Of a DNA stretch of 57,757 nt, positions 7,888-22,050 are shown in pieces. Location: NCBI GenBank assembly GCA_030835025.1, contig JAUQWS010000049.1, positions 1-57,757 on the forward strand, in the 5' to 3' direction. Origin of the DNA: Ignavibacteria bacterium. Its GTDB lineage: Bacteria; Bacteroidota; Ignavibacteria; Tepidaquicellales; OLB5. The notes under the pieces are model-generated. The model saw only the letters and a list, made by a program, of their open reading frames with translations, was not told the origin of the DNA and made no database searches. Made by a program: the position numbers and the translations under genes. The stretch's first letter is position 1, and each line of letters opens with the position of its first letter.

Positions 7888-9519
7888 TTATTTTTCCGTT
7901 AGCTTAATTTCTTTTGTTTCTGAATTGATTGATCTAAGTTTTTCGACTTCAAGAGCAAGCAGATTTTGCATTTCTTCAAACTTTGCAAGCTTGTCTTTCA
8001 ATTCATTGTTTTCAGTTTTTAATTCTGCAATTTCATTATCCTTCTCGGATTTTAATTCTTGTATAGCCTTAACCATTACAGGTAAAAGATTCCCGTAAGT
8101 AGCTTCCCATTTTTCGGGATTATCTTTAAGTACAAGGTTAAGCCACTCTGCGCCTGCTGTGGTTTGAGCATCATCAAGCTCCTGGGCTATAAAACCAGCA
8201 GTTGGGGCTTCTTTCATTTTGCTGCCCTCGGAAACATTGTCATCATACCATTCACGTTTATCCCAGTTGAACTGGCGCGGATGAAGCTTCGCGATGAAAT
8301 CAAGGCCGAGTGAAAGTTCTTTGATATTTTTCTTATCACGCGCATCCGATAGTGAAGTGATGGTCTGTACATTACATCTCAGCGAGTTTACAAATCCGTT
8401 GCCCAGTGTGACCTGATCAATTGCGGTGGGTGAAGAAGGTGCGGCATCAATGCCTATACATGTTAAGTTTGCGCCTGTTGTTATTGTTGAGCCTGCATTA
8501 TATCCCAGGGCAGTGTTATAATTGCCGGTATTGTTCAATAGCGATTGATAACCATAGGCAGTATTGTTAAATCCTGCAGTATTAAACCGAAGCGAGAAAA
8601 AGCCAAATGCACAATTCCCTGAGCCTGTAGTGTTGCTGTTGAGTGAAGTATAACCGAACGCTGAATTATCATTTCCGGTGATGTTATTCCTGAGTGTAGA
8701 GCTGCCGAATGCAGAATTCTGAACCCCGGTTGTATTTTTGTTCAGCGTGTAGAATCCGTAAGCCGAATTACCGCCGCCCGTAGTATTGCTGTACATTGAG
8801 TTACTCCCGAAAGCAGAATTCCAGATGCCCGTTGAATTTGAAGTGAGAGAAAAGTATCCGAATGATGAATTGTCACTGCCGGTTGTGTTGCCGCGCAAAG
8901 ACATATAACCGAATGCTGAATTATAATTACCTGTTGTGTTACTGAAGAGTGAGCTAGCACCAAATGAGGAATTGCTGCTTCCGGTAGTGTTAAAATGAAG
9001 TGAAAAACTTCCAAAAGCAGAGTTTGATAGCCCTGTTGTATTATTCTTCATTGAAGCCGTACCAAATGCTGAATTATCGTTTCCTGTTGAATTGGTAAAA
9101 AGAGAATTCATCCCAAAAGCAGAATTTTGGAAACCGGTGGTTAAAGAACTTAGACTTTGGTAACCAACGCCGGTATTATTGCTGCCTTCAACCGAGACTG
9201 TTCCGCCAAGCGTGAAATTACCCGAGTTAATGCCGAGAAATGTATTAAATCCGGAAGTACCTGTACCCTGGTAATTGTGCAGAAAACTGTTTCCTCCCTT
9301 AAAAACCACACCGGTTGAAAAAGTTGTTGTATTAGGAAGCGCCAAACTGCGGTTCAAAGTTAAATATCCGTTTGACTGGTTAACGGATAGATAATCCGTT
9401 GCTGCATCCTTTATCTTAAATACGCCGCTTGTACCAAGTGTGTTGGTGATGTTCTGTGAGATTAACAGATTACAAATCATCAGATTACAGATTATGAAGA
9501 TGAATGATATTGACTTCAT
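7888..9519 (-). CDS. Tail-fibre-like surface protein with S74 chaperone domain (A2)
   Basis: 543 residues with the same plan as its neighbours: a signal peptide (ends near NLLISQ, residue 22), the NTLGTSGVFKIKD head, then about 14 repeats of 17 residues. Here the repeats have drifted to TGxxNSAFGxxSLxSNT, so Ser-Ala-Phe replaces the Thr-Ala-Val seen in A3. An S74 domain follows with the Ser391/Lys396 dyad, then a long C-terminal coiled coil (about 485-540). It lies 1 nt upstream of the next fibre gene and 24 nt downstream of a propeller gene, in one leftward operon. Bases 8366-8502 are identical to 11,244-11,380 of fibre gene A1, although flanking sequence differs. Confidence 0.88.
   Translation of the reverse strand: MKSISFIFIICNLMICNLLISQNITNTLGTSGVFKIKDAATDYLSVNQSNGYLTLNRSLALPNTTTFSTGVVFKGGNSFLHNYQGTGTSGFNTFLGINSGNFTLGGTVSVEGSNNTGVGYQSLSSLTTGFQNSAFGMNSLFTNSTGNDNSAFGTASMKNNTTGLSNSAFGSFSLHFNTTGSSNSSFGASSLFSNTTGNYNSAFGYMSLRGNTTGSDNSSFGYFSLTSNSTGIWNSAFGSNSMYSNTTGGGNSAYGFYTLNKNTTGVQNSAFGSSTLRNNITGNDNSAFGYTSLNSNTTGSGNCAFGFFSLRFNTAGFNNTAYGYQSLLNNTGNYNTALGYNAGSTITTGANLTCIGIDAAPSSPTAIDQVTLGNGFVNSLRCNVQTITSLSDARDKKNIKELSLGLDFIAKLHPRQFNWDKREWYDDNVSEGSKMKEAPTAGFIAQELDDAQTTAGAEWLNLVLKDNPEKWEATYGNLLPVMVKAIQELKSEKDNEIAELKTENNELKDKLAKFEEMQNLLALEVEKLRSINSETKEIKLTEK
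8366..8502 (-). repeat. 137-bp tract identical to 11,244-11,380
   Basis: By direct comparison these 137 bases match the tract in the fibre gene at 10,775 without a difference. Sequence on each side diverges at once. It codes for the junction between the repeat stalk and the S74 domain (from NAGST to the LRCNVQ segment). Confidence 0.85.
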
Positions 9520-9543: not shown

Positions 9544-10761
9544 TTATTTAACTAAGATCATTTTGATAACTTTTGAAAATTCTCCTGCATTCAGTCTGCA
9601 ATAATATATTCCGCTTGAATTCTGCGACGCGTCAAAATCAACATTATATGTTCCCGCACCAAGGTATTCATTCACAAGTATTTTCACTTCTTTGCCGGAA
9701 ATATCAAATACAGTGAGTTTCACAAAACCGCCTTTTGGCATTTGGATTTTGACATTTGTCGTTGGGTTGAACGGATTTGGATAATTCTGGCTCATGCTGA
9801 AATCAACAGGAATTTCAGAAGATACCAGGCTCACTGATGTTATCATTTCTGAAAGAGTTCTCCGGTATACCATGCCGCTTAAGGCTCCGGCAAAAATATT
9901 TTGACCGCTTATAATAAGGGTATTAATAATAGTATTCGGCATACCGACTCCAACCGATGACCAGTTAGTTCCGCTATTGGTTGAGAGGAATATCCCTCCG
10001 CCGGATGAACCTGCAAAGATGTTTCCACCGCTTGCAGTAACAGTATTAATTATTAAGCCTGCAAGTCCGCCTGTATTGATCCAGTTGGCGCCGTTATTCG
10101 TAGTGCGGAAGACACCGCTGAAAGTACCGGCATAAAGATTTGTACCGCTTGCAGTAAGTGACTGGATAGCTGTGTTTGTTAATCCGGTATTAACCTGTAT
10201 CCAGTTAGTGCCGCTGTTTGAAGAACGATAAACACCGTCACCGCTTGTTCCTGCAAATAGCTCAGTGCCGATCACTCCCAATGCAAATATGAGATTACCT
10301 GATAATCCTCTGAAGCTCCACAAAGCACCGTTATTGGTAGAAAGAAATACTCCATCCCCTGTTCCAGCGATAAGGTTGGTTCCGGCAGCGGTTATAGAGT
10401 AAACGGTAAGATCTGTCAAACCGGTGTTTACTGATACCCAATTTGTACCGTTATTGGTTGAACGAAATACTCCGCCGGATAAAGTGCCTGCAAAAAGATC
10501 TGAACCGATGACAGAAAGGCCTAAGACGGCAGTGTCCAGTAATCCGTTATTTCTTGCAATCCAGTTTGTACCGTTGTTTGTTGATATAAATGCCCCGCCA
10601 TAATATCCGTTCGGACCGCCCCAGCTCCCCGCGAAAAGATTCGCGCCGTTTACGGCAAAACATCTTACTGATGCGCCTGGCCCGGGTCCGCCAGTTGAAA
10701 CCCATTGAGCCGTAAGTGAATTTGAAATTATGAAGAATAAAGTTAATATTAATGTTTTCAT
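9544..10761 (-). CDS. Beta-propeller (BNR/YCF48-like) T9SS surface protein
   Basis: 405 residues from the ATG at 10,761, where a clean signal peptide begins (MKTLILTLFF...SLTAQ). A frame start at 10,791 would add 10 charged residues before it and overlap the upstream gene. About six to seven repeats of FAGTxxGVFRSTNNGTNW, spaced about 42 residues, match BNR/sialidase-like or YCF48-like propeller blades. The C-terminal 85 residues are a T9SS sorting domain with FSMSQNYPNPFNPTT, VFDISGKEV and a final VIKMILVK. It is likely surface-exposed and binds a ligand or partner through the propeller; the ligand is unknown. It lies 13 nt after fibre gene A1. Confidence 0.88.
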   Translation of the reverse strand: MKTLILTLFFIISNSLTAQWVSTGGPGPGASVRCFAVNGANLFAGSWGGPNGYYGGAFISTNNGTNWIARNNGLLDTAVLGLSVIGSDLFAGTLSGGVFRSTNNGTNWVSVNTGLTDLTVYSITAAGTNLIAGTGDGVFLSTNNGALWSFRGLSGNLIFALGVIGTELFAGTSGDGVYRSSNSGTNWIQVNTGLTNTAIQSLTASGTNLYAGTFSGVFRTTNNGANWINTGGLAGLIINTVTASGGNIFAGSSGGGIFLSTNSGTNWSSVGVGMPNTIINTLIISGQNIFAGALSGMVYRRTLSEMITSVSLVSSEIPVDFSMSQNYPNPFNPTTNVKIQMPKGGFVKLTVFDISGKEVKILVNEYLGAGTYNVDFDASQNSSGIYYCRLNAGEFSKVIKMILVK

Positions 10762-10774
10762 TTTATGTTTTAAG

Positions 10775-12433
10775 TTATTTTTTTTCGCCAAGTGTTACTT
10801 CTTTTATGCCGTCATTTCGTGATTCAAGTTCTTCCATTTTCTTCACAAGCAGCTTCTGTATATGTTCATATTTCGCAAGCCGTTCTTCTAGGGTTTCGTT
10901 CCTATTTTTGAGCTCATCGTTTTCGGTTTTCAATTCCTGTATTGCTTTTACCATTACCGGTAAAAGATTTCCATAAGTAGCTTCCCATTTTTCAGGATTA
11001 TCCTTCAATACCAGGTTAAGCCACTCAACTCCTGCACTTGTTTGAGCTTCATCAAGCTCCTGAGCAATAAATCCCGCTGTCGGGGCTTCTTTCATTTTGC
11101 TGCCATCGGAAACATTATTATCATACCACTCGCGTTTATCCCAATTGAACTGGCGGGGATGAAGTTTTGTGATGAAGTCGAGTCCTAAAGTGAGCTCTGT
11201 AATGTTCTTCTTATCGCGTGCATCTGAAAGTGATGTGATAGTTTGTACATTACATCTCAGCGAGTTTACAAATCCGTTGCCCAGTGTGACCTGATCAATT
11301 GCGGTGGGTGAAGAAGGTGCGGCATCAATGCCTATACATGTTAAGTTTGCGCCTGTTGTTATTGTTGAGCCTGCATTATACCCCAAAGCCGTGTTGTAAT
11401 TACCTCTGTTGTTGAGCAAAGAACTATTTCCTACGGCAGTGTTTTGAAAACCCGCAAGGTTGTCATACATAGAAAGATAACCTATAGCAGTATTATTTGA
11501 GCCACTTACGTTTTTATACAATGAAGACATACCAAAAGCATTATTATAATTGTTATTGTTTTGATATAAAGAATTATGCCCTACGGCTGTATTATTGAAT
11601 CCTGTAATGTTGTTAAACAGTGAGTAATATCCCAGGGCAGAGTTAGAACTACCGGTCGTATTATAGTATAAAGCTGCAGTTCCAACGGATGTGTTTTCGC
11701 TTCCGGTAGTATTGGAATATGAAGATTCCGATCCCACCGCTGTGTTATTATTTCCGCTGGAGTTGGTATATAAAGAATATACACCTAAGGCTACGTTTTT
11801 TATACCTGTAAGATTAGAATATAAAGATTCCGTTCCTAATGCTGTGTTGTAGTTTCCGGTTCCGTTATTAGTTAATGAATTAAAACCTAAAGCAGTGTTA
11901 TTTTTACCGGAAGAATTTAACCACAGAGAATGGTTTCCAATAGCAACATTTTGAAATCCTGAAATATTGGAATTTAAAGCTGAAACTCCAATAGCTGTGT
12001 TTTCGTAACCAGTAGAGTTATTCTGTAAGGTGCCGGTTCCTAAGGCAGTATTGTGAGAACCTGAAGTAAGTCCGGCAAGCGAATAAGGTCCGATCCCTGT
12101 ATTAAATCTCGCTTGTGTTAACAAACTGAAATTACCCGCATTAATGCCCAGGAATGTGTTGTATCCAATTGATTCAGTGGTGTGATATGTGTGTAAAAAC
12201 CTATCCGCACCCTTATATATTACACCAAGGGTTGAGCCTGTGGTATTAGACAGCACCAAGCTACGATTCAACGATAGGTGACCTGTTGCCTGACTTAAAC
12301 TCAGGTAAGTAGTCGCATTATCCTTCAGTGTAAACACTCCGCTTGAGCCAAGTGTGTTAGTGATGTTCTGTGCGATCAGCAAATTGGAAATTACCAGATT
12401 GGATATTAGAATGAATATTGTTTTTGTTTTCAT
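10775..12433 (-). CDS. Tail-fibre-like surface protein with S74 chaperone domain (A1)
   Basis: 552 residues from the ATG at 12,433, which begins the signal peptide MKTKTIFILIS (the in-frame ATG 15 bases upstream lacks support). After the NTLGSSGVFTLKD head there are about 14 repeats of 17 residues (TGxxNTAxGxxSLxxNx); one is a residue short (NNYNNAFGMSSLYKNV). The S74 domain starts at Ser403, with Lys408 completing the Ser-Lys dyad. A coiled coil of about 60 residues follows. The family is known from phage tail spikes and from repetitive adhesin-like proteins of Bacteroidota; nothing phage-like (capsid, terminase, integrase) lies nearby, so I read it as a cell-surface fibre. Shares a 137-bp identical tract with A2. 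Confidence 0.88.
   Translation of the reverse strand: MKTKTIFILISNLVISNLLIAQNITNTLGSSGVFTLKDNATTYLSLSQATGHLSLNRSLVLSNTTGSTLGVIYKGADRFLHTYHTTESIGYNTFLGINAGNFSLLTQARFNTGIGPYSLAGLTSGSHNTALGTGTLQNNSTGYENTAIGVSALNSNISGFQNVAIGNHSLWLNSSGKNNTALGFNSLTNNGTGNYNTALGTESLYSNLTGIKNVALGVYSLYTNSSGNNNTAVGSESSYSNTTGSENTSVGTAALYYNTTGSSNSALGYYSLFNNITGFNNTAVGHNSLYQNNNNYNNAFGMSSLYKNVSGSNNTAIGYLSMYDNLAGFQNTAVGNSSLLNNRGNYNTALGYNAGSTITTGANLTCIGIDAAPSSPTAIDQVTLGNGFVNSLRCNVQTITSLSDARDKKNITELTLGLDFITKLHPRQFNWDKREWYDNNVSDGSKMKEAPTAGFIAQELDEAQTSAGVEWLNLVLKDNPEKWEATYGNLLPVMVKAIQELKTENDELKNRNETLEERLAKYEHIQKLLVKKMEELESRNDGIKEVTLGEKK
11244..11380 (-). repeat. 137-bp tract identical to 8366-8502
   Basis: Second copy of the identical tract described at 8366. 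Its left neighbour differs by the bases before TGTACATTAC and its right neighbour after GCCTGCATTATA. Confidence 0.85.
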
Positions 12434-12499
12434 GGCTGCCTTATACAAGTTGTGAACTGCTATGTTTATCTTTTACTAAAAAATGCTATTTTAGTTCTG

Positions 12500-14629
12500 T
12501 TATTTGATCAGAACCATTTTACGGGTCTGTGAAAAATCACCTGCGGTCATTGTATAAAAATATATTCCGCTGGAGTATTGTGATGCATCAAAATCAATTT
12601 TATATGTTCCCGCACTAAGGTATTCTTTCACAAGTACTTTCACTTCCTTGCCGGTTATATCAAATACGGTAAGTTTCACAAAACCCTCTTTTGGCATTTG
12701 GATTCTGACATTTGTCATTGGATTGAACGGGTTCGGATAATTTTGCGAAAGCGAAAATCCATCAGGTATGTTATTGCTAAGCGGCTGAATATTTGTAATT
12801 GCGCCTCCGTTAGTTGTCTTTAATATCATTGCGCCGGAGCCGGTAATATATCCCGTGCCGGAATCAGTAAATACCATATCCGTAACAGTATTGTTGGTTC
12901 CTGTATTGATATTATCCCAGTTCAATCCGCCGTTGGTTGTTCTTTTACAGTTCGCCTGCCCGTCCCATAAGCCCGCACCATAACCCGTGAGAGCGTTCGT
13001 AAAATACAGCGTACTGAAATTTCCCGCCGCGGCATTTATAACGCTCCAGTTAACTCCGGCATTGGTTGTTTTCAGAATATTCCCCTGTCCGCAGGAAGCG
13101 TAACCTGTACTTGCATCAGTAAAAAATATAGCCTGCGGAATCTGCGCTGAGCCTGTAACGCGCTCAACCCAGTTAAGCCCTGAATTAGTAGTTGCCAGAA
13201 TACCGGGGGTATATTTTAATATAAAACCATTTGCCGGATCTTTGAAATATATTTTGGTGAATGATTCAGCGGGAAAGCCTGTGTTAATAACAGACCAGTT
13301 TACACCTGCATTGATTGTTTTTATCACTACTCCGTTGGAGTTACATGCCGCGTAACCGGTGTTTTGATTAACAAATACCAGGCTTGAGATCTGTTCTGCG
13401 GTACCTGTTGACAAAGTGTTCCAATTATTTCCGCCATCGGTAGTTTTATAAACAATGTTTGTATATATTGAAAAATACCCTGTATTATTATCCGTGAACT
13501 CCAGGTTACCAATATTGGAATTAGAGGGCTGCGCCAGCATAAACCAGTTTGTTCCGCCGTTGGTAGTCTTCATCATTTCGCCGGCATAAAGCCCGGCATA
13601 ACCTGTACTTGCAGAGGGAAAACTGAGGCTGAAAGCATATGAGTTTGTTCCCGAAATCTGGGAGCTCCAGTTGGTTCCTCCGTTTGTTGTTATTAATTGT
13701 GTACCGTAACTGCCGGTAAGAAATCCTTTAGTGCCGTCTATAAAAAAAATGCCTTTTAGATCGTTATAGTTTGCCTGCTGCAGAATATTAACCGTCCAGT
13801 TAACGCCGCCGTTTGTAGTAGCAAGGTAACGCCTGCTATCACCTGCTGCGTATACGTTCAGAAGGTCACGGGAAAATATTTTATTTATAGTCTGATTATT
13901 TGTTGTTGTTAAAAGGCTCCAGTTAGTACCGCCATTAGTGGTTTTTACAATTTTACCTCCCCAGCCCCCGGCAAAGCCGTTTATGCTGTCAACAAAACTT
14001 ATTGCATATACGGGGTTTGTATTAACAGTGGCCTGAGCTGTCCAGTTGAGTCCCCCGTTTATGGATTTGTAAACATTTCCGTTAGCGGCTGCAATATATG
14101 CGGTTAATGCGCTGCTGAAACAAATATTGTGAAGAGATGCGGCAGCTACAGAAAGTGTATTCCAGTTCACGCCGCCGTTGGTTGTCCGCATCAGGAGTCC
14201 GCCGTAACCGCCTGCAAGCCCGGTGTTAGCATCTGCAAAATCCACCGCCAGGAAACCCGCGCCGTTGCTTAAATATGAAGTAACCCAGTTTATGCCGCCG
14301 TTAGTAGTCTTTAGAACTACCTGAGTATTAAATCCACCTGCAATAAAACCCGTTGCGGCATTCAAAAATGAAATTGAATTCAGGTTTTCGGTTGTGCCTG
14401 AGACCTGGCTAACCCAGCTTGAGCCGCCATTGGTAGTTTTTAAGATCGTGCCGTAATTACCAGCTTCGTATCCGGTGCTTGAACCAATGAACTGAACATC
14501 ATTTATATTGTTGCACTGCGGGAGCGGGTTTTGGGTGACCCAAACCGGCTGGGCAAATGTAAGCGGCAGAATAAACACAAACTGAAGCAGCACAGAATAA
14601 ATATAACAGCAGTATTTCGTTTTTTTCAT
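12500..14629 (-). CDS. Large YCF48/BNR-type propeller protein with T9SS tail
   Basis: 709 residues: a signal peptide (about 1-26, ending LTFAQ), then about 13 to 14 blades each with the signature TTNGGxNW preceded by a TGYxxG strand. These are hallmarks of the YCF48-like/BNR beta-propeller family. A T9SS C-terminal sorting domain follows (FSLSQNYPNPFNPMT, VFDITGKEVKVLV, ending RKMVLIK). It is probably a large surface-displayed double propeller; the ligand is unknown. The ATG overlaps the stop of the upstream ribbon-helix-helix gene by 4 nt (ATGA), so the two are translationally coupled and the regulator leads this operon. The tail is closely similar to that of the 9544 protein, a sign of duplication. 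Confidence 0.88.
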   Translation of the reverse strand: MKKTKYCCYIYSVLLQFVFILPLTFAQPVWVTQNPLPQCNNINDVQFIGSSTGYEAGNYGTILKTTNGGSSWVSQVSGTTENLNSISFLNAATGFIAGGFNTQVVLKTTNGGINWVTSYLSNGAGFLAVDFADANTGLAGGYGGLLMRTTNGGVNWNTLSVAAASLHNICFSSALTAYIAAANGNVYKSINGGLNWTAQATVNTNPVYAISFVDSINGFAGGWGGKIVKTTNGGTNWSLLTTTNNQTINKIFSRDLLNVYAAGDSRRYLATTNGGVNWTVNILQQANYNDLKGIFFIDGTKGFLTGSYGTQLITTNGGTNWSSQISGTNSYAFSLSFPSASTGYAGLYAGEMMKTTNGGTNWFMLAQPSNSNIGNLEFTDNNTGYFSIYTNIVYKTTDGGNNWNTLSTGTAEQISSLVFVNQNTGYAACNSNGVVIKTINAGVNWSVINTGFPAESFTKIYFKDPANGFILKYTPGILATTNSGLNWVERVTGSAQIPQAIFFTDASTGYASCGQGNILKTTNAGVNWSVINAAAGNFSTLYFTNALTGYGAGLWDGQANCKRTTNGGLNWDNINTGTNNTVTDMVFTDSGTGYITGSGAMILKTTNGGAITNIQPLSNNIPDGFSLSQNYPNPFNPMTNVRIQMPKEGFVKLTVFDITGKEVKVLVKEYLSAGTYKIDFDASQYSSGIYFYTMTAGDFSQTRKMVLIK

Positions 14630-14823
14630 TTTATAATTAATGTAATATTCTTTTTTAATTCGTCATGGAGCAATGTGCAGGCAGCCGATATCGCCCGGTC
14701 CTGGTCTGATTTCATTAATGCCTGTATTTTGCTTATCAGCGCATGAGTTTCGGGTTTTAATCTGTATCCCCTTGCTGTTTTGATTGTCTTTGGGTTTATC
14801 ATCTTCTTAGTTTTTAATTTCAT
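14626..14823 (-). CDS. Small ribbon-helix-helix-like protein leading operon A
   Basis: 65 residues, very basic N-terminus, then a strand-helix-helix pattern: RGYRLKPETHALISKIQALM followed by a loop SDQDR and a second helix AISAACTLLHDEL. This fits the MetJ/Arc ribbon-helix-helix fold, whose dimers put a beta-ribbon in the DNA major groove. The relative at 20,223 keeps the core (RGYRLKPxTHxxIxKLQ, DQDxAIxxACxxL). Both are first genes of leftward surface-protein operons, next to a promoter holding the same inverted repeat. I infer a DNA-binding autoregulator, but the fold assignment rests on pattern only. ATGA overlap with the next gene. Alternative: a small nucleoid or partner-binding protein. 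Confidence 0.75.
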   Translation of the reverse strand: MKLKTKKMINPKTIKTARGYRLKPETHALISKIQALMKSDQDRAISAACTLLHDELKKNITLIIK

Positions 14824-14868
14824 TTTCCGGTTTCTGCTTTGTTATTTTAAGTTACAGTTCATTCCTAA

Positions 14869-14911
14869 GTGCACGGGTACAAACATAGTGCGCGTGCACA
14901 CCCTGTGCAAA
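14869..14911 (-). promoter_or_regulatory. Operator and core promoter of surface operon A
   Basis: Inverted repeat GTGCACG (14,869-14,875) / CGTGCAC (14,893-14,899) with a 17-bp spacer. Read leftward there is TTTG (14,908-14,911), 20 bases, then TATGTTTG (14,880-14,887), a perfect Bacteroidota -33/-7 promoter. One half-site lies between the two elements and the other just past the -7, where a bound protein would block transcription. The same layout occurs at 20,449. The leader to the first gene is about 56 nt. Confidence 0.7.
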
Positions 14912-14960
14912 GATATTTTTAAACAAAATTAACCCATGACCTGCAAGTAAGTTATAATAA

Positions 14961-14973
14961 TATTGTTGATTTT
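14961..14973 (+). promoter_or_regulatory. Conserved TATTGTTGATTTT element before helical gene A
   Basis: The 13-mer occurs again at 20,541. In both places the first base is 62 nt after the last base of the inverted repeat and 55-57 nt before the helical gene. It may be the -7 region of the rightward promoter, though no good -33 TTTG is visible 19 nt upstream. Confidence 0.45.
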
Positions 14974-15017
14974 GGCCCAAAATCTTAGGAAATTACACCA
15001 AAAACTTAACCTGGAAA

Positions 15018-16478
15018 ATGAGAGACATAAAGCTTATAAATATTTTGAAGACTCTTTCTAAAGTAGAAATGAAGCGTTTCGGAAAGTTCGTTGCATCTCC
15101 GTATCACAACAGCGGAAAAAACTGCATGCCGCTATTTAAGCTGCTCGAGAAATCTCATCCTGATTTTAAGGAGGGGAATTATACTTATGAAGCTATTCAT
15201 AAAAAGCTATACCCGGGCAAAAAATTCAATAAACAAGTTACCTGGAATCTCACTTCAGCGATGGAAAAGATGACAAAAGAGTTTCTGAAACAGGAAGCGC
15301 TTAAGAAGGATGATTTCATTCAAATGGATCTGGCGCTCACGGAATTTGGCAGCAGAAAATTGTTGAATTATTACTCTAATGTTTTGATCGAAATGGAAAA
15401 AATGCTCGATAAAAGCAGCATTGATACTGAATATTTCAGCAAACAATACAAATTAAGGATCTTTAAACAGACCTATTACTTTTCGGTTGATAAAGTTCAC
15501 CTTATTGGAGATGCAACACATAAAACTGCAGAATGGGGGGCAATATATTTTCTTAGAATAATCGTAGGCGCCTTAAAAGATATGCTGATCCTGCGGGAAT
15601 ACTACAATTACAAAGTTGATGTGAACGTACCGCTTGCGATAGTGAAAAATCTTGACCTGAAAAGTGTTGTTGATTATATCAATAAGGAAAAATTTGAATA
15701 TGCCTTTTACATAGAGATCTATTATCATTCTCTAATGATGCTTCTTGAACCGAAGCAAACCTGGCATCTTGATAGATACAGAGAGCTGTTTGAGAAGCAC
15801 TTTAAGAATTTTGACAAAATTGAGCAGATTAGCATGATCACCGACATGGTCAATTATTGCATGTATTATCCTGAATTAGGAAATAGTAAATTCAAAAGAG
15901 TGATCTTTGAGTTAAATGAATTCCAGCTGAAAGAGGGTTTGGCATTTTTTCCGGATAATCAGTTATCCAAGACTAAATACCTGCAAAACCTTATGACTGC
16001 TTTAGCGGTCAATGAGACCAAATGGACCGAAGATTATATTGAAAAATATACTCCAAAACTCCTTCCCGAAATAAGGGAATCTATGAAATGCCTGGCTAAT
16101 GCTTTCCTCTGTTTTCATACTAAAGAATACCGGAAAGTGCTTGAGTATGTGAACAAAGTTGAATTTGTTGATATCCGCGATAAGATCCAAACAAGAGCAC
16201 TCTCTGCAAAATCATATTACGAATTAAACGAAACAGAAACATTGCTGCACTACATCGACTCTTCAAAACATTTCGTCATTAATAACCCATCCGTATCTGA
16301 GACGGAAGGAAAAAATATTCGCAATTTTTTCAAATATTTAACGAAGTTGATATATTTAAAAGAAAGCAATGATAATGTTGAAATAAGTATACTGAGAAAT
16401 GATGTAGAGAAAAATAAGGAACTCTCAAATAAAGATTGGCTGCTGGAAAAAATTCGTGAGCTGGAAAAAGTAAAATAA
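15018..16478 (+). CDS. Helical protein of unknown function, module A
   Basis: 486 residues, ATG start. No recognised domain. The N-terminal ~95 residues are the best conserved part among the three relatives: IKLINILKTLS, EMKRFGKFVASPY, a HPDF segment, KLYPGKKFNKQVTWNLTSAMEK and EFLKQ. This has the helical look of a DNA- or protein-binding module. The remaining ~390 residues form helix pairs reminiscent of degenerate TPRs (YRKVLEYVNKVEFVD, RALSAKSYYELNETETLLHYIDS). No signal peptide. It is divergent from operon A across a 194-bp shared promoter region with an inverted repeat, as in module B. An intracellular regulator or assembly factor for the surface proteins is possible, but that is inference from position only. 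Confidence 0.85.
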   Translation: MRDIKLINILKTLSKVEMKRFGKFVASPYHNSGKNCMPLFKLLEKSHPDFKEGNYTYEAIHKKLYPGKKFNKQVTWNLTSAMEKMTKEFLKQEALKKDDFIQMDLALTEFGSRKLLNYYSNVLIEMEKMLDKSSIDTEYFSKQYKLRIFKQTYYFSVDKVHLIGDATHKTAEWGAIYFLRIIVGALKDMLILREYYNYKVDVNVPLAIVKNLDLKSVVDYINKEKFEYAFYIEIYYHSLMMLLEPKQTWHLDRYRELFEKHFKNFDKIEQISMITDMVNYCMYYPELGNSKFKRVIFELNEFQLKEGLAFFPDNQLSKTKYLQNLMTALAVNETKWTEDYIEKYTPKLLPEIRESMKCLANAFLCFHTKEYRKVLEYVNKVEFVDIRDKIQTRALSAKSYYELNETETLLHYIDSSKHFVINNPSVSETEGKNIRNFFKYLTKLIYLKESNDNVEISILRNDVEKNKELSNKDWLLEKIRELEKVK

Positions 16479-16575
16479 GAAGAATGGAACTTCTGATGCA
16501 ATCCTGTGTTAAATATCTGTGCATTTTAAATTAAGCTTGTTTTTGTGATATTGGCTTAAGGGAAAGGATTCAATT

Positions 16576-17148
16576 ATGGAATATGCAATAGGGATTTGCC
16601 TTGGTCTGGGACTGGCAGCAAGCTGCGGTTTCAGGGTTTTTGTACCTCTGCTCATAAGCAACATTGCATCAATGGCCGGAGTGGTAAACATTGGAAGCGG
16701 ATTTGAATGGATGGCGTCCTGGCCTGCATTTGCCGTATTCGCAAGCGCGACTGTTGCAGAAATCATTGCTTATTACGTTCCCTGGCTTGATAATGCACTC
16801 GATACAATTGCCATTCCCCTTGCAGCAGTTGCCGGCTCATTGCTTTCGCTTTCATTCATGACTGACCTTCCTCCGATGATTCAGTGGACTCTTGGTATAA
16901 TTGTCGGCGGCGGCTCCGCTGCAGTGATCAAAACGGGAGCAAGCATGGCAAGGCTTAAATCAAGTGCATTCACCGCCGGGTTTGCTAACTGGATAATTGC
17001 AACTCTTGAGCATATCACTTCGATAGTCATGAGCGTGCTGACGGTCTTGATACCAATTGTAATGGGAATTATAGCGCTTGGAGTGCTGGGATATTTTGGC
17101 TACAGGTTGAGCCTGAAGAAGAAAACAGGGCCTGTGAAAAGGGGATAA
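16576..17148 (+). CDS. DUF4126-family membrane protein
   Basis: 190 residues with about four to five hydrophobic helices. The opening GLGLAASCGFRVFVPLL, the WMASWPAFAVFASATVAEIIAYYVPWLDNALDTIA stretch (broken here by its conserved Pro and Asp residues) and the glycine-rich GGGSAAVIKTGAS loop are characteristic of DUF4126, inner-membrane proteins of unknown role. Positive C-terminus (LKKKTGPVKRG). ATG start at 16,576 with a purine-rich GGGAAAGG upstream. It follows the helical gene A by 97 bp in the same direction and is convergent with operon B. Confidence in the family is high; the function is unknown. Confidence 0.85.
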   Translation: MEYAIGICLGLGLAASCGFRVFVPLLISNIASMAGVVNIGSGFEWMASWPAFAVFASATVAEIIAYYVPWLDNALDTIAIPLAAVAGSLLSLSFMTDLPPMIQWTLGIIVGGGSAAVIKTGASMARLKSSAFTAGFANWIIATLEHITSIVMSVLTVLIPIVMGIIALGVLGYFGYRLSLKKKTGPVKRG

Positions 17149-17160
17149 GAAAATGTTTAT

Positions 17161-17179
17161 GATAACACCAACAATGGGG
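17161..17179 (+). repeat. Short repeat GATAACACCAACAATGGGG
   Basis: Differs by one base from 26,581-26,599. Both copies lie 12-17 bases past the stop codon of a rightward gene. Here the left arm of the hairpin seen at the other copy is missing. Confidence 0.5.
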
Positions 17180-17213
17180 TATGTTTCACTATCGGTTTGT
17201 AATGTGATTCCTT

Positions 17214-17975
17214 TTACTTCACAAGCAGCATTTTCTTAGTAGAAGTGAAACCATCAGAAATGAAACGGTAGAAATAAACGCCGCTTGCAAGATTTGAGCC
17301 ATCGAACTCTGCAGTATAATACCCTGCATCTTTAATTTCATTTACAAGTGTTAATATTTCCTGACCCAACAGATTATACAGGCTTATGTGGACTTTGCCC
17401 TTAAGGGGGATTTCATATTCAATTTTGGATTTAGGGTTAGAAGGATTTGGATAGTTCTGCCCCAGCGCAAAAGTATTGGGCGGCTGGATGGTTATTGCTG
17501 ATTCAAGCTCAAAATACTCATAGCTTCCGTTGTAATCTATCTGCTTCAGGCGGTATTTATATGAACCGGTCTGGAGCTTTTTGTTTGTGAAAGTATAAGT
17601 AACGGGCTCGTTTGTGGTGCCGCTGCCCTGCGCAAATCCCGTCTTCTCCCATGAACTTCCATCCTTATCAACCCTCCGCTCAACGTCAAATCCTGAATTG
17701 TTCAGCTCAACTCCCGTTTGCCACGTTAGAACAACATCCACCCTGTTTGCAACCGAAGCGGTGAATGAAAGCAGGGTAACGGGAAGCGCTCCAAGGCAGA
17801 TAGTACCTGAGCCTGACCACGAGCCGTTTATCAGGATCTGATCGGCGCAAACATCAGCATTTGCTCCCACATCAACGCTGGAGCCTGCCTCGTAGGTGAT
17901 ATTGCTTGTCTGCCCTTTGGTGAGCAGCGTCAACAGCGTTATTAGGATAATTGCAAGTATTATGAGCGTTCTCAT
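17214..17975 (-). CDS. Short T9SS-tail surface protein, partner of fibre gene (module B)
   Basis: 253 residues and the counterpart of the protein at 5561. Signal peptide (1-22, ending TKGQ). A GANADVCADQILING segment and TICLGALPVTLLSFTASV share the two-cysteine motif. The LTWQTGVELNNSGFDVERR beta domain follows, then a C-terminal sorting domain with LGQNYPNPSNPKSKIEY and a final STKKMLLVK. It starts 5 nt after the stop of the fibre gene at 17,981, repeating the fibre-then-tail-protein order of module A. Since the fibre proteins carry no T9SS tail of their own, this protein may help anchor or export them (inference). Confidence 0.88.
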   Translation of the reverse strand: MRTLIILAIILITLLTLLTKGQTSNITYEAGSSVDVGANADVCADQILINGSWSGSGTICLGALPVTLLSFTASVANRVDVVLTWQTGVELNNSGFDVERRVDKDGSSWEKTGFAQGSGTTNEPVTYTFTNKKLQTGSYKYRLKQIDYNGSYEYFELESAITIQPPNTFALGQNYPNPSNPKSKIEYEIPLKGKVHISLYNLLGQEILTLVNEIKDAGYYTAEFDGSNLASGVYFYRFISDGFTSTKKMLLVK

Positions 17976-17980
17976 ATTCT

Positions 17981-19288
17981 TTATTCCTGTGTAAGTATAA
18001 CTTCCTTTACATTATTGCTTTGCCGAATTTGGTTGAGCTCAAGCTTAGCCAAACGCTCTTCGATAATTCTCATATTTTCGATTTCTGTTTTCAGCTTATC
18101 GTTTTCAGCTTTTAATTCCTGAATAGCTTTAACCATCACAGGCAAAAGATTTCCGTAAGTAGCTTCCCATTTTTCGGGGTTATCTTTAAGCACAAGGTTA
18201 AGCCACTCGACCCCGGCTGTCGTTTGAGCTTCATCAAGCTCCTGTGCAATGAATCCGGCTGTTGGCGCTTCCGTCATTTTGCTTCCGTCTGAAGTATTAT
18301 TGTCATACCATTCGCGTTTATCCCAGTTGAACTGGCGGGGATGAAGTTTTGTGATGAAATCAAGCCCAAGTGATAGCTCTGAAATATTTTTTTTATCTCT
18401 TGCATCAGAAAGCGATGTAATGCTCTGCACATTGCACCGCAGAGAGCCTACAAATTGGTTTCCCAGTGTGATCTGGTTACTTGCTGTAGGACTTGAAGGA
18501 TTAGCATCAATTCCGAGGAGTGTCAGGTTTTCTCCAGTTGTAACTGTTGAACCTGAATTGTAGCCGATTGCAGTATTGTAATTTCCTGTATTGTTGATAA
18601 GTGAATGGTGACCAATGGCTGTATTTTGCCATCCTGTAACATTATTGCGGAGCGCATCATAGCCAACAGCTGTATTCTGTGTTCCGGTTGTGTTGGAATA
18701 TAGGCTGTTGTTTCCCACTGATGTATTGTCGAAACCGGTTGTGTTATTGTATAGGGATGCTGAACCGAAAGCGGAATTATTATTGCCAGTTGTGTTTGAA
18801 CGCAAGGAAAATAGCCCTAAGGCTGAATTACCAAAACCGTTGTTAAGCAATAGAGATTCAAATCCCACTGCTGTGTTTTGACCCCCTGTGGTATTAAAGC
18901 GCAAAGAATACGCTCCGACGGCTACATTCACACTCCCAGTGGTGTTTGATGATAAAGAGCTGTAACCTATAGCTGTGTTCCACAAACCCGTAGTTGAGAA
19001 ATTACCTGAGTTAATACCAACAAAGGTGTTTTCTTGCCCGTAGTTATGTATAAACCTGTCCGTTCCTTTGAATATTACGCCGGTTGTTGAGCTTGTAGTA
19101 TTCGGAAGTACAAGGCTTCGGTTAAGGTTTAAATAACCGTTTGACTGACTGAGAGAGAAATAATCTGTTGCTCCATCCTTTATCTTAAACACACCGCTTG
19201 TGCCAAGCGTGTTGGTGATGTTCTGTGAGTATAGCAAATTGCAGATTATCAGACTGCAGATTATTGTAATTAATGTTTTTGTTTTCAT
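17981..19288 (-). CDS. Tail-fibre-like surface protein with S74 chaperone domain (B)
   Basis: 435 residues, the shortest of the four fibre proteins, with about nine 17-residue repeats against 13-14 in the others. Signal peptide (1-21, ending NLLYSQ), NTLGTSGVFKIKD head, repeats TGxxNTAxGxxSLxxNT, S74 domain with Ser294/Lys299, and a C-terminal coiled coil (IENMRIIEERLAKLELNQ). The head resembles A2 while the coiled coil resembles A3, so pieces may have been exchanged between copies. It follows the FecR-like gene by 24 nt and precedes the short T9SS protein by 5 nt. The dyad suggests self-cleavage after trimer folding, as known for phage endosialidase chaperones. Confidence 0.88.
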   Translation of the reverse strand: MKTKTLITIICSLIICNLLYSQNITNTLGTSGVFKIKDGATDYFSLSQSNGYLNLNRSLVLPNTTSSTTGVIFKGTDRFIHNYGQENTFVGINSGNFSTTGLWNTAIGYSSLSSNTTGSVNVAVGAYSLRFNTTGGQNTAVGFESLLLNNGFGNSALGLFSLRSNTTGNNNSAFGSASLYNNTTGFDNTSVGNNSLYSNTTGTQNTAVGYDALRNNVTGWQNTAIGHHSLINNTGNYNTAIGYNSGSTVTTGENLTLLGIDANPSSPTASNQITLGNQFVGSLRCNVQSITSLSDARDKKNISELSLGLDFITKLHPRQFNWDKREWYDNNTSDGSKMTEAPTAGFIAQELDEAQTTAGVEWLNLVLKDNPEKWEATYGNLLPVMVKAIQELKAENDKLKTEIENMRIIEERLAKLELNQIRQSNNVKEVILTQE

Positions 19289-19312
19289 GGTTATATACTT
19301 TATAAATTTTAA

Positions 19313-20203
19313 TTATTCTTCCCACCATTTTTCTTCAACGGAATCCAAAGGCTCTACAATTATTGATGATCCCGTGACTTTACACATGTTGCCTTCATCT
19401 ACAATTGTTGGCTTACGAATATCTCTTGTTTTTTCGACCCTTGATGACAATTCCATCATTTTTGTCCCGAATTCCTCTGCTGAAATTTTATTCTCAGAAA
19501 ATTGAATACTTAATTTTTCCAGCTCCCGTGCCATTGCTTCTTCTTCAGAGAAATTATAACCAATATTAGTAACTTCAACTGAACCTTCATAAACTCTGAT
19601 CACATCAATTGTATCGTCCCCATCAATTTGAACATCGTGCGAATAATGAGTCTTTGTATGTATTACGGATGACTTTATTCCGACTGTTCTAACCTTACTT
19701 TTCTTGCCCTTTTCTGATTTGAATTTCACTTTTCCCTTTTTGAGCTCAAGTGTTTCCTGCTCGTTTATTCGTTCACATAAATTCTGAAGGCGAGGTACAA
19801 TCAGATTTGAGTTTTCATTTACATATATATAGAACGAACCTGTAATATCATCAGGATTATCATTGGGCAGGTATGCATTAAGAACCAGTCCGGAACCAGC
19901 ATCAGTATAAACTGTTGTTCCTTCGATCAGAATATCTCCTTTTTGCAGCTTTTTATCAACAACAACATAAAGTGTTTCAAATTCTTTGGTGCATCCGCTG
20001 ATTACCTTAGGCTCCTTTATCATTCCAGTTGCAGTGCCAATTACATGAGCTACTTTAAAGAAACATCTATTACTGCCAAGGAATTCACGGTGTAATACTT
20101 CGTAATTTTCGCCGTCAAACAGAAGTGAATCGTGTCCGTCATTGAGTGCCGAAGCGCCGGCACAGAGCGTAATTGATAAAATGAAAAAGATAATTGTCTT
20201 CAT
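19313..20203 (-). CDS. Secreted FecR-like domain protein
   Basis: 296 residues from the ATG at 20,203, which begins a signal peptide (MKTIIFFILSITLCAGASA). An in-frame start at 20,245 would overlap the preceding gene and add 14 charged residues. The core (about 85-215) reads like a FecR/PKD-type jelly roll: LQKGDILIEGTTVYTDAGSG, ELKKGKVKFKSEKG, then DVIRVYEGSVEVTN. The C-terminal third is helical and acidic and ends in a WWEE motif. In classical systems FecR is an inner-membrane anti-sigma protein; this one is secreted, with no nearby sigma factor, so it is more likely a surface or periplasmic FecR-domain protein. It holds the slot that propeller proteins fill in module A. Confidence 0.75.
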   Translation of the reverse strand: MKTIIFFILSITLCAGASALNDGHDSLLFDGENYEVLHREFLGSNRCFFKVAHVIGTATGMIKEPKVISGCTKEFETLYVVVDKKLQKGDILIEGTTVYTDAGSGLVLNAYLPNDNPDDITGSFYIYVNENSNLIVPRLQNLCERINEQETLELKKGKVKFKSEKGKKSKVRTVGIKSSVIHTKTHYSHDVQIDGDDTIDVIRVYEGSVEVTNIGYNFSEEEAMARELEKLSIQFSENKISAEEFGTKMMELSSRVEKTRDIRKPTIVDEGNMCKVTGSSIIVEPLDSVEEKWWEE

Positions 20204-20222
20204 AATTGGATTAATTTTGGTT

Positions 20223-20417
20223 TCAAGCAGCCTTTGCTGAGCCATTCATTGTTTTTATTTCCTTATAAAGCTTTAAACAGGCATCGGCTATGGCCTTATC
20301 CTGATCACAATTTAGAATGCGCTGCAGTTTGGCTATCATCCCGTGCGTTGAGGGCTTAAGCCTGTAGCCGCGGGTTTTCTTTTGTTCTGAGGTATTAATT
20401 GACTTATTTCTTTTCAT
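20223..20417 (-). CDS. Small ribbon-helix-helix-like protein leading operon B
   Basis: 64 residues; basic N-terminal arm (MKRNKSINTSEQKKT), then strand RGYRLKP, helix STHGMIAKLQRIL, turn NCDQDK, helix AIADACLKLYKEI. This is the ribbon-helix-helix pattern shared with the 14,626 protein. It is the first gene of operon B and lies 19 nt before the FecR-like gene. Its promoter carries the same 31-bp inverted repeat as operon A, making it a candidate autoregulator. I see no toxin partner, so a toxin-antitoxin role is not supported. The two copies differ enough in sequence that cross-regulation is open. Confidence 0.75.
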   Translation of the reverse strand: MKRNKSINTSEQKKTRGYRLKPSTHGMIAKLQRILNCDQDKAIADACLKLYKEIKTMNGSAKAA

Positions 20418-20448
20418 TTTTTTTCCCGTTTTGTTCTTTACTTGTGCT

Positions 20449-20492
20449 GTGCACGGTTACAAACTTACTCAGCGTGCACGTGCCGCTGCAAA
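20449..20492 (-). promoter_or_regulatory. Operator and core promoter of surface operon B
   Basis: Same inverted repeat as at 14,869: GTGCACG (20,449-20,455) / CGTGCAC (20,473-20,479), total 31 bp. Leftward promoter TTTG (20,489-20,492), 21 bases, TAAGTTTG (20,460-20,467), matching TAnnTTTG. Bases inside the spacer are also shared (TTACAAAC against GTACAAAC). Confidence 0.7.
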
Positions 20493-20540
20493 GAAATTTT
20501 AGTATAGAACTAATAAGTCATAGTTAATAAGAACTTTAAA

Positions 20541-20553
20541 TATTGTTGATTTT
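20541..20553 (+). promoter_or_regulatory. Conserved TATTGTTGATTTT element before helical gene B
   Basis: Identical 13-mer to 14,961-14,973, again 62 nt from the inverted repeat. Likely part of the rightward promoter. Confidence 0.45.
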
Positions 20554-20595
20554 TGTTAAATTTTTAAGGATCTTGCGCATCAAAACCTAATAAGC

Positions 20596-22050
20596 TTGAA
20601 AGAGATAAAACTGATAGTTTTCCTTAAATCGCTCAGCCGGGAGGAAATGACACTTTTCGAAAAGTTCATTGCTTCGCCGTATTTCAATTCAGTCAGAAAC
20701 CACACCCGGCTCTTAAGTGAACTCATAAAATTCCACCCGGGATTTGATAATGCAGGGCTAAGCGCGGAGTATCTTCATGAAAGGATCTTCCCGGGAAAGA
20801 AGTTTAATAAACAGGTAATGTGGAACCTAAGCTCCGGGCTGGAAAAACTTGCACGGGATTTCCTCGTACAGCTTGCACTTAACAAGAATCCTCACACAAA
20901 GCACACGCTAATATTTGATGAGCTTCTTACCCGGGGTCTTCATAAGCAATACACAAGAGAGCTTGATGAACTTGAAAAGCTGCTTAGCTCCGCAAGAATA
21001 GACAGTACATACTACTACAATATCTGGCTGCTTGAGCAAAGCAGGATAACGTACTGGCAAAAGGCAAAAGGGCTTCAGAATGTGTTCGCAGAAAACATTT
21101 TCCGGTCTGGTGAATATCTTGCTCTTGAGTTTCTTCTGAAGCTTTACAAAGCTGCAAGTGACTCGTTATTCTTCAGAGATTCATACAACGAAAAAGATAA
21201 ACACGGAAGCCTTGAGGGTGTTCTTAAGAGCATCAGGCTTGATGAAATGGCTGAGCAATTCAGAAGAAGCACATCACCAAATGCAGGACTTATAGAATTC
21301 TATTGTAATCTAACACAAATTGCAGCAAATGTGAACAATCCAGATACTTTTTTTAGGGCGATGGATTTTCTTTTCAAGAACCATGAACTTTTCAAGATTG
21401 ACGAAAAACGGAACATTGTTTCGGTCCTTGAGAACCATTGTTTATTCCGCGCTGCGGAAGGAAAACTGGAGCTGAGAAAAGAGCTTTTTGCGCTGCATGG
21501 GTTCAGACTGAAAAACAATGTGCTTACATATGAGAACGGAAAGTTCAACAAGACGCATTTTATTCAGATAGTGAATAATGCAATTGTCCTGAAGAAGTAT
21601 AAATGGGTCAGGAAATTCATAAATGAAAGTTCGGATTCGCTTGTTGAAGAACACAGAGAACCTATTAAAGCTCTGGCTGAAGGATTGCTTTACATTGGAC
21701 TGAAGAAATACAATAAAGTAATTGAATCACTCAACCGGGTAGAATTCATAGATGCAAGAGATAAGGTCCAGGAGAAGAACCTGAGAGCAAGAGCATATTA
21801 CGATTTGGGCGAGCATGATACTCTGTTAAGCCATATTGATACGGCCAAACATTTCCTCAGGAAAAACAGAACTATCAGCGAAAGCCGGAAAGAATCTTAT
21901 GTTAACTTTTACAATTACCTGCAGAAACTTGCGGTTGCCCGCGAGAAAATGGATGACGTTTCAATAAACCAGCTGAAAAAAAAGATTATCAGCGAAAAAA
22001 GGATCCTGTTCAGGAACTGGCTACTGGAAAGAGTTGAGAGGCTGAAATAA
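20596..22050 (+). CDS. Helical protein of unknown function, module B
   Basis: 484 residues. The start is TTG: the residues that follow (KEIKLIVFLKSLSREEM) align exactly with the ATG start of the relative at 15,018 (RDIKLINILKTLSKVEM), and no ATG is nearby. Same architecture: conserved N-terminal block (EKFIASPYFNS, HPGFD, RIFPGKKFNKQVMWNLSS), then all-helical TPR-like repeats and a basic C-terminus with the NWLLERVERLK motif. Cytoplasmic by absence of a signal. Divergent from operon B across 178 bp. Function unknown; three copies in or at the edge of 22 kb mark it as a lineage-expanded family. Confidence 0.85.
   Translation: MKEIKLIVFLKSLSREEMTLFEKFIASPYFNSVRNHTRLLSELIKFHPGFDNAGLSAEYLHERIFPGKKFNKQVMWNLSSGLEKLARDFLVQLALNKNPHTKHTLIFDELLTRGLHKQYTRELDELEKLLSSARIDSTYYYNIWLLEQSRITYWQKAKGLQNVFAENIFRSGEYLALEFLLKLYKAASDSLFFRDSYNEKDKHGSLEGVLKSIRLDEMAEQFRRSTSPNAGLIEFYCNLTQIAANVNNPDTFFRAMDFLFKNHELFKIDEKRNIVSVLENHCLFRAAEGKLELRKELFALHGFRLKNNVLTYENGKFNKTHFIQIVNNAIVLKKYKWVRKFINESSDSLVEEHREPIKALAEGLLYIGLKKYNKVIESLNRVEFIDARDKVQEKNLRARAYYDLGEHDTLLSHIDTAKHFLRKNRTISESRKESYVNFYNYLQKLAVAREKMDDVSINQLKKKIISEKRILFRNWLLERVERLK

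Follow-up and report, generated by a model that had tools for sequence, protein, structure and literature searches.

H proteins as putative local regulators of divergent secreted-protein operons in Ignavibacteria

The present study concerns a 57,757 nt stretch of DNA from an Ignavibacteria bacterium (assembly GCA_030835025.1, contig JAUQWS010000049.1), hereafter the window, which comprises the whole contig. Two modules in the window share the same order, in which a gene for an all-helical protein of 484–486 aa, belonging to a family here designated H, points right and a leftward run of genes encoding secreted proteins, led by a ribbon-helix-helix (RHH)-like gene of ~65 aa, starts opposite it. 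Based on evidence that is computational throughout, we estimate a probability of roughly 80% that each H protein is a cytoplasmic, sequence-specific DNA-binding regulator dedicated to its divergent operon and works by the full mechanism proposed below.

Two divergent modules in the window

Module A comprises H1 (486 aa, 15018..16478, + strand), a helical solenoid protein proposed to be the local activator, and a leftward run on the − strand in the order RHH-like protein A (65 aa, 14626..14823), a YCF48/BNR-type propeller with a type IX secretion system (T9SS) tail (709 aa, 12500..14629), an S74 fibre (557 aa, 10775..12448), a T9SS-tail protein (415 aa, 9544..10791), a second S74 fibre (543 aa, 7888..9519), the final S74 fibre of the run (515 aa, 6339..7886) and a short T9SS-tail protein (5561..6334, ATG at 6334). 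The RHH-like gene and the next gene overlap by ATGA. In module B, the paralogue H2 (484 aa, TTG start, 20596..22050, + strand), likewise a proposed local activator, lies opposite a − strand run consisting of RHH-like protein B (64 aa, 20223..20417), a FecR-like protein (19313..20245), an S74 fibre (435 aa, 17981..19288) and a short T9SS-tail protein (17214..17975). H1 and H2 are 33% identical and the two RHH-like proteins 49% identical over 55 residues. The Por_Secre_tail matches in the window (40.8, 37.2 and 43.1 bits) exceed the Pfam cut-off of 27, by which we assign these proteins to type A cargo of the T9SS, and S74 fibres were assigned by a Peptidase_S74 domain over its cut-off (39.8 bits in the module B protein, cut-off 22).

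An earlier note on this DNA, made from the sequence alone, had described both loci in this order, and their coordinates are confirmed here, as is the placement of a T9SS-tail gene directly behind an S74 gene, with a gap of 4 nt in module A and 5 nt in module B. The same note had both operons ending with this pair, which holds strictly for module B, where the run stops at the tail gene, and fails for module A, where a same-strand gene (3463-5466) begins 94 nt beyond the tail gene. The FecR-like assignment in module B falls just short, with a match of 22.8 bits against a Pfam cut-off of 24. The third helical gene that had been seen cut at the window edge is real (H3, a third paralogue, 1..1410, + strand); the edge is the contig end, and with the 5' end of H3 lost there, neither its promoter nor its partner operon is visible.

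The H family and the operons it faces

The source genome (3.03 Mb in 136 contigs) contains 30 H matches, six RHH matches, 12 S74 domains and, with 150 of 255 candidates scored, no fewer than 150 T9SS tails. H matches were found in 36 of the 39 genomes of the relatives search, the source genome counted, many of them with 40 or more, and fuller counts gave 53, 47, 39 and 45 copies in genomes G009, G002, G012 and G028, respectively. Phylum-wide, at least 38 of 247 genomes match H, mostly in a single copy and many through the C-terminal part only, these counts being lower bounds as at most six candidates were scored per genome. A viral origin of H was considered and rejected; of 363 viral-contig stretches that matched a pattern, none encodes a relative. 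Tandem same-direction runs of two to three H genes occur at loci L064, L065, L081 and L112 and at G009 C1:427355-430167, their inner copies being among the H genes without the promoter described below.

To quantify gene linkage, we counted those H genes whose 5' end is complete and for which an upstream neighbour had been called, using genes of 300–700 aa from the same DNA as controls. A run was regarded as secreted if our own signal-peptide heuristic identified one of its first two genes, or if a T9SS tail or S74 domain occurred in its first four. The upstream neighbour was divergent for 25 of 27 H genes in the source genome, 23 of 27 in G009 and 58 of 81 in the named loci. H genes were divergent from a secreted run in 23/27, 20/27 and 51/81 cases, compared with 16/134, 8/130 and 16/208 of the controls (Fisher P = 1e-13, 2e-13 and 9e-22, respectively), which themselves come from H-rich neighbourhoods, the stretches having been selected around H genes. 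T9SS or S74 domains alone were found opposite H in 18/27, 16/27 and 31/81 cases versus 4/134, 1/130 and 2/208 controls. Some true divergent cases were lost because the gene calls include spurious small open reading frames (ORFs). The G009 sample comprised 20 stretches, of which 14 on contig C1 were H-rich and chosen knowing the H positions and six were evenly stepped on C2.

Each of the 12 S74 domains of the source genome belongs to a same-strand run whose first gene faces an H gene and whose internal gaps do not exceed 244 nt; with 30 H matches in the genome, the arrangement exceeds chance. An S74 gene directly followed by a tail gene occurs at eight places in the genome, including window 6339/5561; three of these pairs end their run by a strand change, one lies inside module A, and four have further same-strand genes after 14, 39, 94 and 323 nt. 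Ten cargo proteins that we checked were propeller, Ig/cadherin, dockerin, amidohydrolase or protease-like, with three unmatched and none belonging to SusC/SusD. Comparing L064:6652-8732, from another metagenome-assembled genome, with window positions 14626-16478 revealed an H1 counterpart that is 82% identical and yet faces a different first cargo, two S74 genes in place of the T9SS propeller of module A; the regulator therefore stays while the cargo changes. Among the distant loci L223-L232, six of ten (L223, L224, L225, L227, L228 and L231) have a divergent signal-peptide-like gene as first or second neighbour, and L230 has a signal-peptide-like divergent neighbour of 79 aa. At L093 (Saprospiraceae) and L114 (Candidatus Parvibacillus), the product of the gene opposite H has a T9SS tail together with Ig or cadherin-like domains. 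Some divergent runs open with a fibronectin-type III protein with no evident signal peptide (G000 C41:2865-4817, C46:31652-33223 and C99:41813-42130; called by Pfam for C41 and by eye for C46 and C99).

The divergence of H from secreted runs supports the earlier proposal of a surface-display module with its own regulation. The RHH-like gene and the S74–tail pair, which that proposal counted as parts of the module, are present in both window loci and mark subsets only, the general rule being H opposite a secreted operon. The linkage test that the earlier note had put forward, on the neighbours of H genes, gave a divided outcome: most H genes lack an RHH-like gene, and most lie opposite a secreted run.

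None of the three window H proteins has a Pfam or NCBIfam match over cut-off. When a 53-row H alignment was compared with Pfam, no family was matched by more than six members (best E 0.00058, mostly helical-repeat families), and NCBIfam gave a single family for one member (E 0.00065). Alignment A5 leaves out seven of 58 named loci owing to a partial, merged or broken match (L072, L079, L112, L113, L117, L120 and L121). An AlphaFold model of H1 based on the 53-row alignment has a mean pLDDT (predicted local distance difference test) of 91.4 and 24 helices. According to their titles, the best 50 of 1027 Foldseek matches to this model are mainly helical-repeat proteins (TPR, PPR or similar), with a best E of 3.4e-3 and none reaching 0.001 among the matches listed, and the TPR/PPR sequence matches of H are mostly to designed repeats. 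By resemblance only, H is thus modelled with confidence as a TPR/PPR-like solenoid of ~385 residues preceded by an N-terminal helical domain; the first 100 residues of H1 modelled alone have a pLDDT of 86.5. Structure matches of the RapI type were weak and were not used for membership. A BTAD-like winged helix was considered for the N-terminal domain and rejected, as the models lack a wing, have no strand of three or more residues and gave no fold match. With winged-helix membership dropped, the claim that H reads DNA rests on covariation.

Promoter and residue–base covariation

Upstream regions were examined for 207 H genes with distinct starts, each matching the family model from position 25 or earlier at 60 bits or more and having 200 nt of upstream DNA. 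Of all 6-mers compared, TCTTTG in the orientation facing the cargo shows the strongest enrichment, with 62 of 101 H–cargo gaps containing it versus 6 of 90 divergent control gaps. TTTG is a feature of promoters at −33. The aligned promoter reads gt.A.aa.....aaAAa.TtTCTTTG, 20 nt, TAa.TTTg, with a −7 box spacing of N20 in 97 and N21 in 50 of 166 cases. In a study of a flavobacterium (PMC9723704), TAnnTTTG is the −7 box assigned to the primary sigma factor. The module A promoter (14878..14935, − strand, 29.5 bits) has an upstream element at 14927-14933, TCTTTG at −33 (14908-14913) and a −7 box at 14880-14887, and that of module B (20459..20516, − strand, 22.6 bits) has the same features at 20508-20514, 20489-20494 and 20461-20468, respectively. 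A matrix trained without the source genome identified 17 places scoring 17 bits or more in 0.88 Mb of strand of that genome, of which 15 were H-linked by script, and both window promoters were among the top seven. At 9 bits, 21 of 56 places were H-linked, and weak scores therefore mean little.

Using a matrix refined on the H regions and a threshold of 12 bits, a site facing the cargo was found for 164 of the 207 H genes and a site facing H for one; among control upstream regions, 3 of 419 had the promoter in the same orientation. First genes opposite H carried the promoter in 29/36 (T9SS/S74), 16/25 (other secreted) and 33/45 (other) cases, and later genes of H-facing runs in 14/92, 11/73 and 1/56, respectively. 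Corresponding values were 6/60, 5/217 and 3/543 for genes not linked to H, and 1/19, 0/45 and 1/105 for genes near an edge whose H link could not be determined; the promoter preceded 1 of 137 H genes themselves. One of the six non-linked T9SS/S74 cases (C25) sits opposite H if a small ORF is ignored. The promoter is therefore specific to H-facing genes and does not mark T9SS genes generally. With the promoter located without the upstream element, the element scored best at its expected position in 82 of 162 cases and at each other offset within 12 nt in one to eight. At L150, L194 and L206, three similar H genes have TCTTTG replaced by a GTGGTGG-like stretch.

Similarity of the element tracks similarity of H, most closely with residues 51–100, the A-tract tracks residues 1–50, and the spacer gives almost no signal, the correlations being small (0.13–0.14 at best; 0.09 for TCTTTG against the full-length protein). 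Of 27,318 residue–column pairs, residue 77 with column 4 (mutual information 0.51, Z 21.3) and residue 76 with column 6 (Z 19.5) rank highest, and further strong pairs include 73/4 (Z 13.1), 72/6 (Z 12.5) and 74/4 (Z 11.6). Restricting the analysis to 104 representatives with <40% identity and to columns 0–21, the six top pairs of 10,362 were 77/4, 72/6, 76/6, 73/4, 72/7 and 74/4. At column 4, the base is T with asparagine at residue 77 in 54/73 cases, C with lysine in 22/28, G with aspartate in 7/7, and A with threonine or valine in 12/17 and 8/10, respectively; arginine is mixed. For rows with <35% identity, base 4 was predicted correctly from residue 77 in 105 of 152 cases, compared with 57 for the majority base. 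The 81 independent sister pairs comprise 60 that agree in the residue, 50 of which share the base, and 21 that differ in it, of which 6 share the base (P = 8e-6). Residues 72–77 open a long helix (72–97) in the H1 model; their codons, proposed to encode the DNA-recognition residues, lie at 15231..15248 in H1 and 20809..20826 in H2 (both + strand).

A held-out set was assembled from 60 further H genes, of which 12 were excluded at ≥90% identity; six of the 48 left were dropped for having no site or too little DNA, leaving 42 with a site. Bases were predicted from nearest neighbours, with the element masked during site finding and training rows limited to 45% identity. Over columns 2–8, neighbours chosen on the helix residues scored 0.697, compared with 0.605 for the majority base and 0.639 for the full-length protein. 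Random residue sets averaged 0.52 (sd 0.04) and none of 500 equalled the helix set, while for column 6 alone 8 of 500 did so. Of 476 sliding six-residue windows, 72–77 was the best (0.728, median 0.524), followed by five windows that overlap it; elsewhere in the protein the highest score was 0.626. Since the recognition place had been set by the training data, the held-out result replicates its location and not a simple code. The source genome has 20 distinct element cores and 22 distinct recognition stretches among 23 promoters, which fits insulated regulator–promoter pairs.

Several observations weigh against H proteins as DNA-reading regulators. A single-residue rule, fixed before the held-out genes, failed with 24/41 correct against 26/41 for the majority base T, and was right in only 4 of the 13 cases for which it predicted a base other than T; its permutation rank was 270 in 10,000, its column 6 counterpart scored 26/41 against 22 for the majority, and in the cases that it missed the reading seems to be altered by a four-residue insertion and by the neighbouring residues 73 and 74. 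The nearest-neighbour test was devised after this failure. Residues 418 and 414, which lie outside the helix, rank high with column 23 (Z 12.9 and 11.4). As regards the promoter, in 80 of 162 cases the expected distance is not the one at which the element scores best, and 43 of the 207 H genes have no promoter at 12 bits (some of them Saprospiraceae members or second copies in tandem runs). Among the control regions, 18 of 419 carry one in the other orientation, towards the control gene, and all counts at this threshold use a matrix whose refinement drew on these very H regions. The N-terminal domain of H has no fold match in the PDB (best E 3.5), and no known DNA-binding family was found for this part in Pfam or by PDB sequence search.

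Proposed mechanism and relation to known regulators

On balance, sequence-level covariation makes DNA reading by H well supported. We propose that residues 72–77 would read a short element, gtNAnAA, which lies upstream of the cargo −33 box with a preferred spacing, and that H probably activates the cargo promoter together with primary-sigma RNA polymerase, by recruiting or helping the polymerase. The element and the recognition residues change together between paralogues, and the regulators of one genome would therefore read different addresses. The solenoid of ~385 residues probably receives a signal, and the output would be secreted or T9SS-sorted proteins, here often S74 fibres. In a subset of loci, including both window modules, the RHH-like protein, made first, probably acts as a repressor of the operon that encodes it, closing it again by binding the GTGCAC boxes that surround the −7 box and start site. 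The gene arrangement, the common promoter, the favoured spacing, the residue–base covariation and the association of RHH-like genes with GTGCAC are computational results; physical binding, activation over repression, autorepression, signal sensing and surface display are steps that we infer. A broader proposal is tentative, and we would give it somewhat less than an even chance: that H is an unnamed DNA-binding class whose helical DNA-reading domain is unlike any solved one and which has expanded to up to 53 copies per genome in this order, forming insulated activator–promoter pairs, one per T9SS surface operon, with the solenoid reporting on the surface protein or the surroundings.

Of the alternatives, the one that survives best, although we consider it unlikely, is that H, instead of being an activator, acts on the divergent region as a DNA-binding local repressor or as a dual regulator. 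Divergent regulator genes are often repressors, and H appears to read DNA common to both genes. However, the element lies upstream of −33 with a preferred spacing and no overlap with the −33 box, the −7 box or the start site, which is activator geometry, and the boxes over the −7 box are attributed to another factor, the RHH-like protein, which argues against H in the role of repressor.

It is considerably less probable that the residue–base covariation is an echo of the common ancestry of neighbouring DNA and protein rather than recognition. Paralogues and orthologues of H are related, the single-residue rule did not generalise, and full-length nearest neighbours also beat the majority base (0.639 versus 0.605), all of which would be consistent with such an echo. 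Ancestry, however, should touch all residues alike, whereas the signal peaks at 72–77 in both the training and held-out sets, the spacer of the same promoters is nearly free of covariation, and the covariation persists in independent sister pairs.

We give very little credence to the view that H is a chaperone, adaptor or immunity-like cytoplasmic partner of the secreted proteins, with the promoter belonging to another common regulator. The solenoid does resemble protein-binding TPR folds and H genes are tied to secreted genes; this view nevertheless leaves unexplained why upstream bases covary with residues 72–77 above the rest of H, and why the promoter is rare at T9SS genes that are not opposite H. 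The earlier note had likewise taken the helical protein for a cytoplasmic partner, and the shared promoter, the residue–base covariation and the held-out test favour a DNA-binding regulator instead.

RHH-like genes are present in 37 of the 207 H upstream regions, and GTGCAC occurs in 36 of these 37 regions compared with 2 of the 170 without the gene (P = 1e-36). Both window modules have two GTGCAC boxes 25 bp apart on either side of the −7 box, upstream at 14894..14899 and downstream at 14869..14874 in module A, where they are proposed operators of the RHH-like protein as a putative auto-repressor, and upstream at 20474..20479 and downstream at 20449..20454 in module B. Among 38 RHH matches in eight genomes, 32 are divergent beside a listed H gene and six (five in G011, one in G007) have no H gene among the matches listed; in G000, G002, G009, G012 and G028, an RHH-like gene stands beside a divergent H in 22 of 22 cases. 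In the loci examined, 25 of 27 RHH matches, with one place counted twice, sit 25-573 nt from a divergent H. The idea that RHH-like genes are exclusive to H neighbourhoods was rejected on account of L095:19013-19186 and L112:5727-5888, which lack an adjoining H: the 21 kb of sequence at the former contains no H, the nearest H to the latter is 4.3 kb off, and no H fragment is closer. The view of the RHH-like protein as the module's own regulator, taken from the earlier note, thus holds for a subset of H genes and is not general. The label RHH rests on a reading of the sequence pattern; compared with Pfam, no RHH family was over cut-off, neither for the window pair nor among 17 RHH-like proteins, one of which gave a weak match to PF07704 (E 0.016). 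That the gene is the antitoxin-like half of a toxin–antitoxin or plasmid-type unit placed there by chance is highly improbable. In favour of this view, small RHH proteins are commonly antitoxins, one of 17 has the weak PF07704 match and two of 27 matches have no H beside them; against it, though no search was aimed at a toxin partner, the gene stands at the head of runs coding for secreted proteins and is associated with both H genes and GTGCAC boxes.

Long frames holding an RHH match were observed at G000 C26:22394-24202 (L042:12420-14228), where a single frame of 602 aa combines the RHH-like protein with an S74 fibre and an internal signal-peptide-like stretch, at G009 C1:1356079 (with a T9SS tail) and at G011 C92:2178 (758 aa).

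SARP/BTAD regulators combine a winged helix with a TPR-like domain, and activators of the MalT type likewise have an N-terminal DNA-binding part and a TPR-like solenoid, often acting locally. H as proposed here resembles both in having a DNA-binding N-terminal part, a C-terminal TPR-like solenoid and a neighbouring operon that it would activate. Unlike SARP/BTAD proteins, H has no BTAD or Trans_reg_C among its Pfam matches (E to 0.01; E to 1), its models have no beta strand of three or more residues, and its N-terminal domain is unmatched in the PDB. The peptide-sensing RRNPP regulators (Rap, Rgg, PlcR) also have a TPR-type solenoid, and Rap proteins are among the weak fold matches of H; in contrast, no Cro/C1-type helix-turn-helix is among the 25 Pfam families listed for 55 H members, and H-linked genes encode large secreted proteins. 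We do not claim membership of H in either group, and suggest by analogy that it may work like them.

In polysaccharide-utilisation loci of Bacteroidota, private local regulators (hybrid two-component systems, extracytoplasmic function sigma/anti-sigma factors, SusR) are found beside surface operons. These loci are comparable in having many paralogous private regulators per genome, each adjoining its surface operon, and differ in that H is a predicted cytoplasmic one-component regulator of an unnamed family and that none of the ten cargo proteins is SusC/SusD. For the RHH-like protein, the counterparts are autorepressors of the CopG, Arc and MetJ type, which it resembles in its 60-odd residues, its position as the first gene of the operon and the paired palindromic boxes over the promoter, and from which it differs in having no Pfam RHH family over cut-off. 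Private regulators beside surface operons are a known kind; what looks new is the H family itself, the domain with which it would read DNA and how large the set is, and a search of one literature collection by title and start of abstract returned no paper on the H family or such a module.

To our knowledge, how individual T9SS cargo genes are switched is poorly known, and T9SS proteomes are large. For dozens of paralogues in each genome, the sequence here allows us to propose a regulator together with the operon it targets and the DNA address it would read, which makes promoter specificity after gene duplication directly testable, and a function is proposed for a family that has no Pfam model and is abundant in Ignavibacteria. 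If the broader proposal above is true, H proteins would together make up a switchboard through which the cell surface could be addressed, with a protein–DNA code that can be read.

Two minor observations were also made. Distant Bacteroidota proteins at L233, L236, L241, L243 and L246 start with a similar stretch of the LFQLIKSLTKAEKRYFKL type. Their matches to H are weak and fall mainly in the C-terminal part, and these proteins may represent an ancestral form. Outside both modules, the adjacent window genes at 24735-25307 and 25432-25941 have alike translations and appear by eye to be tandem duplicates.

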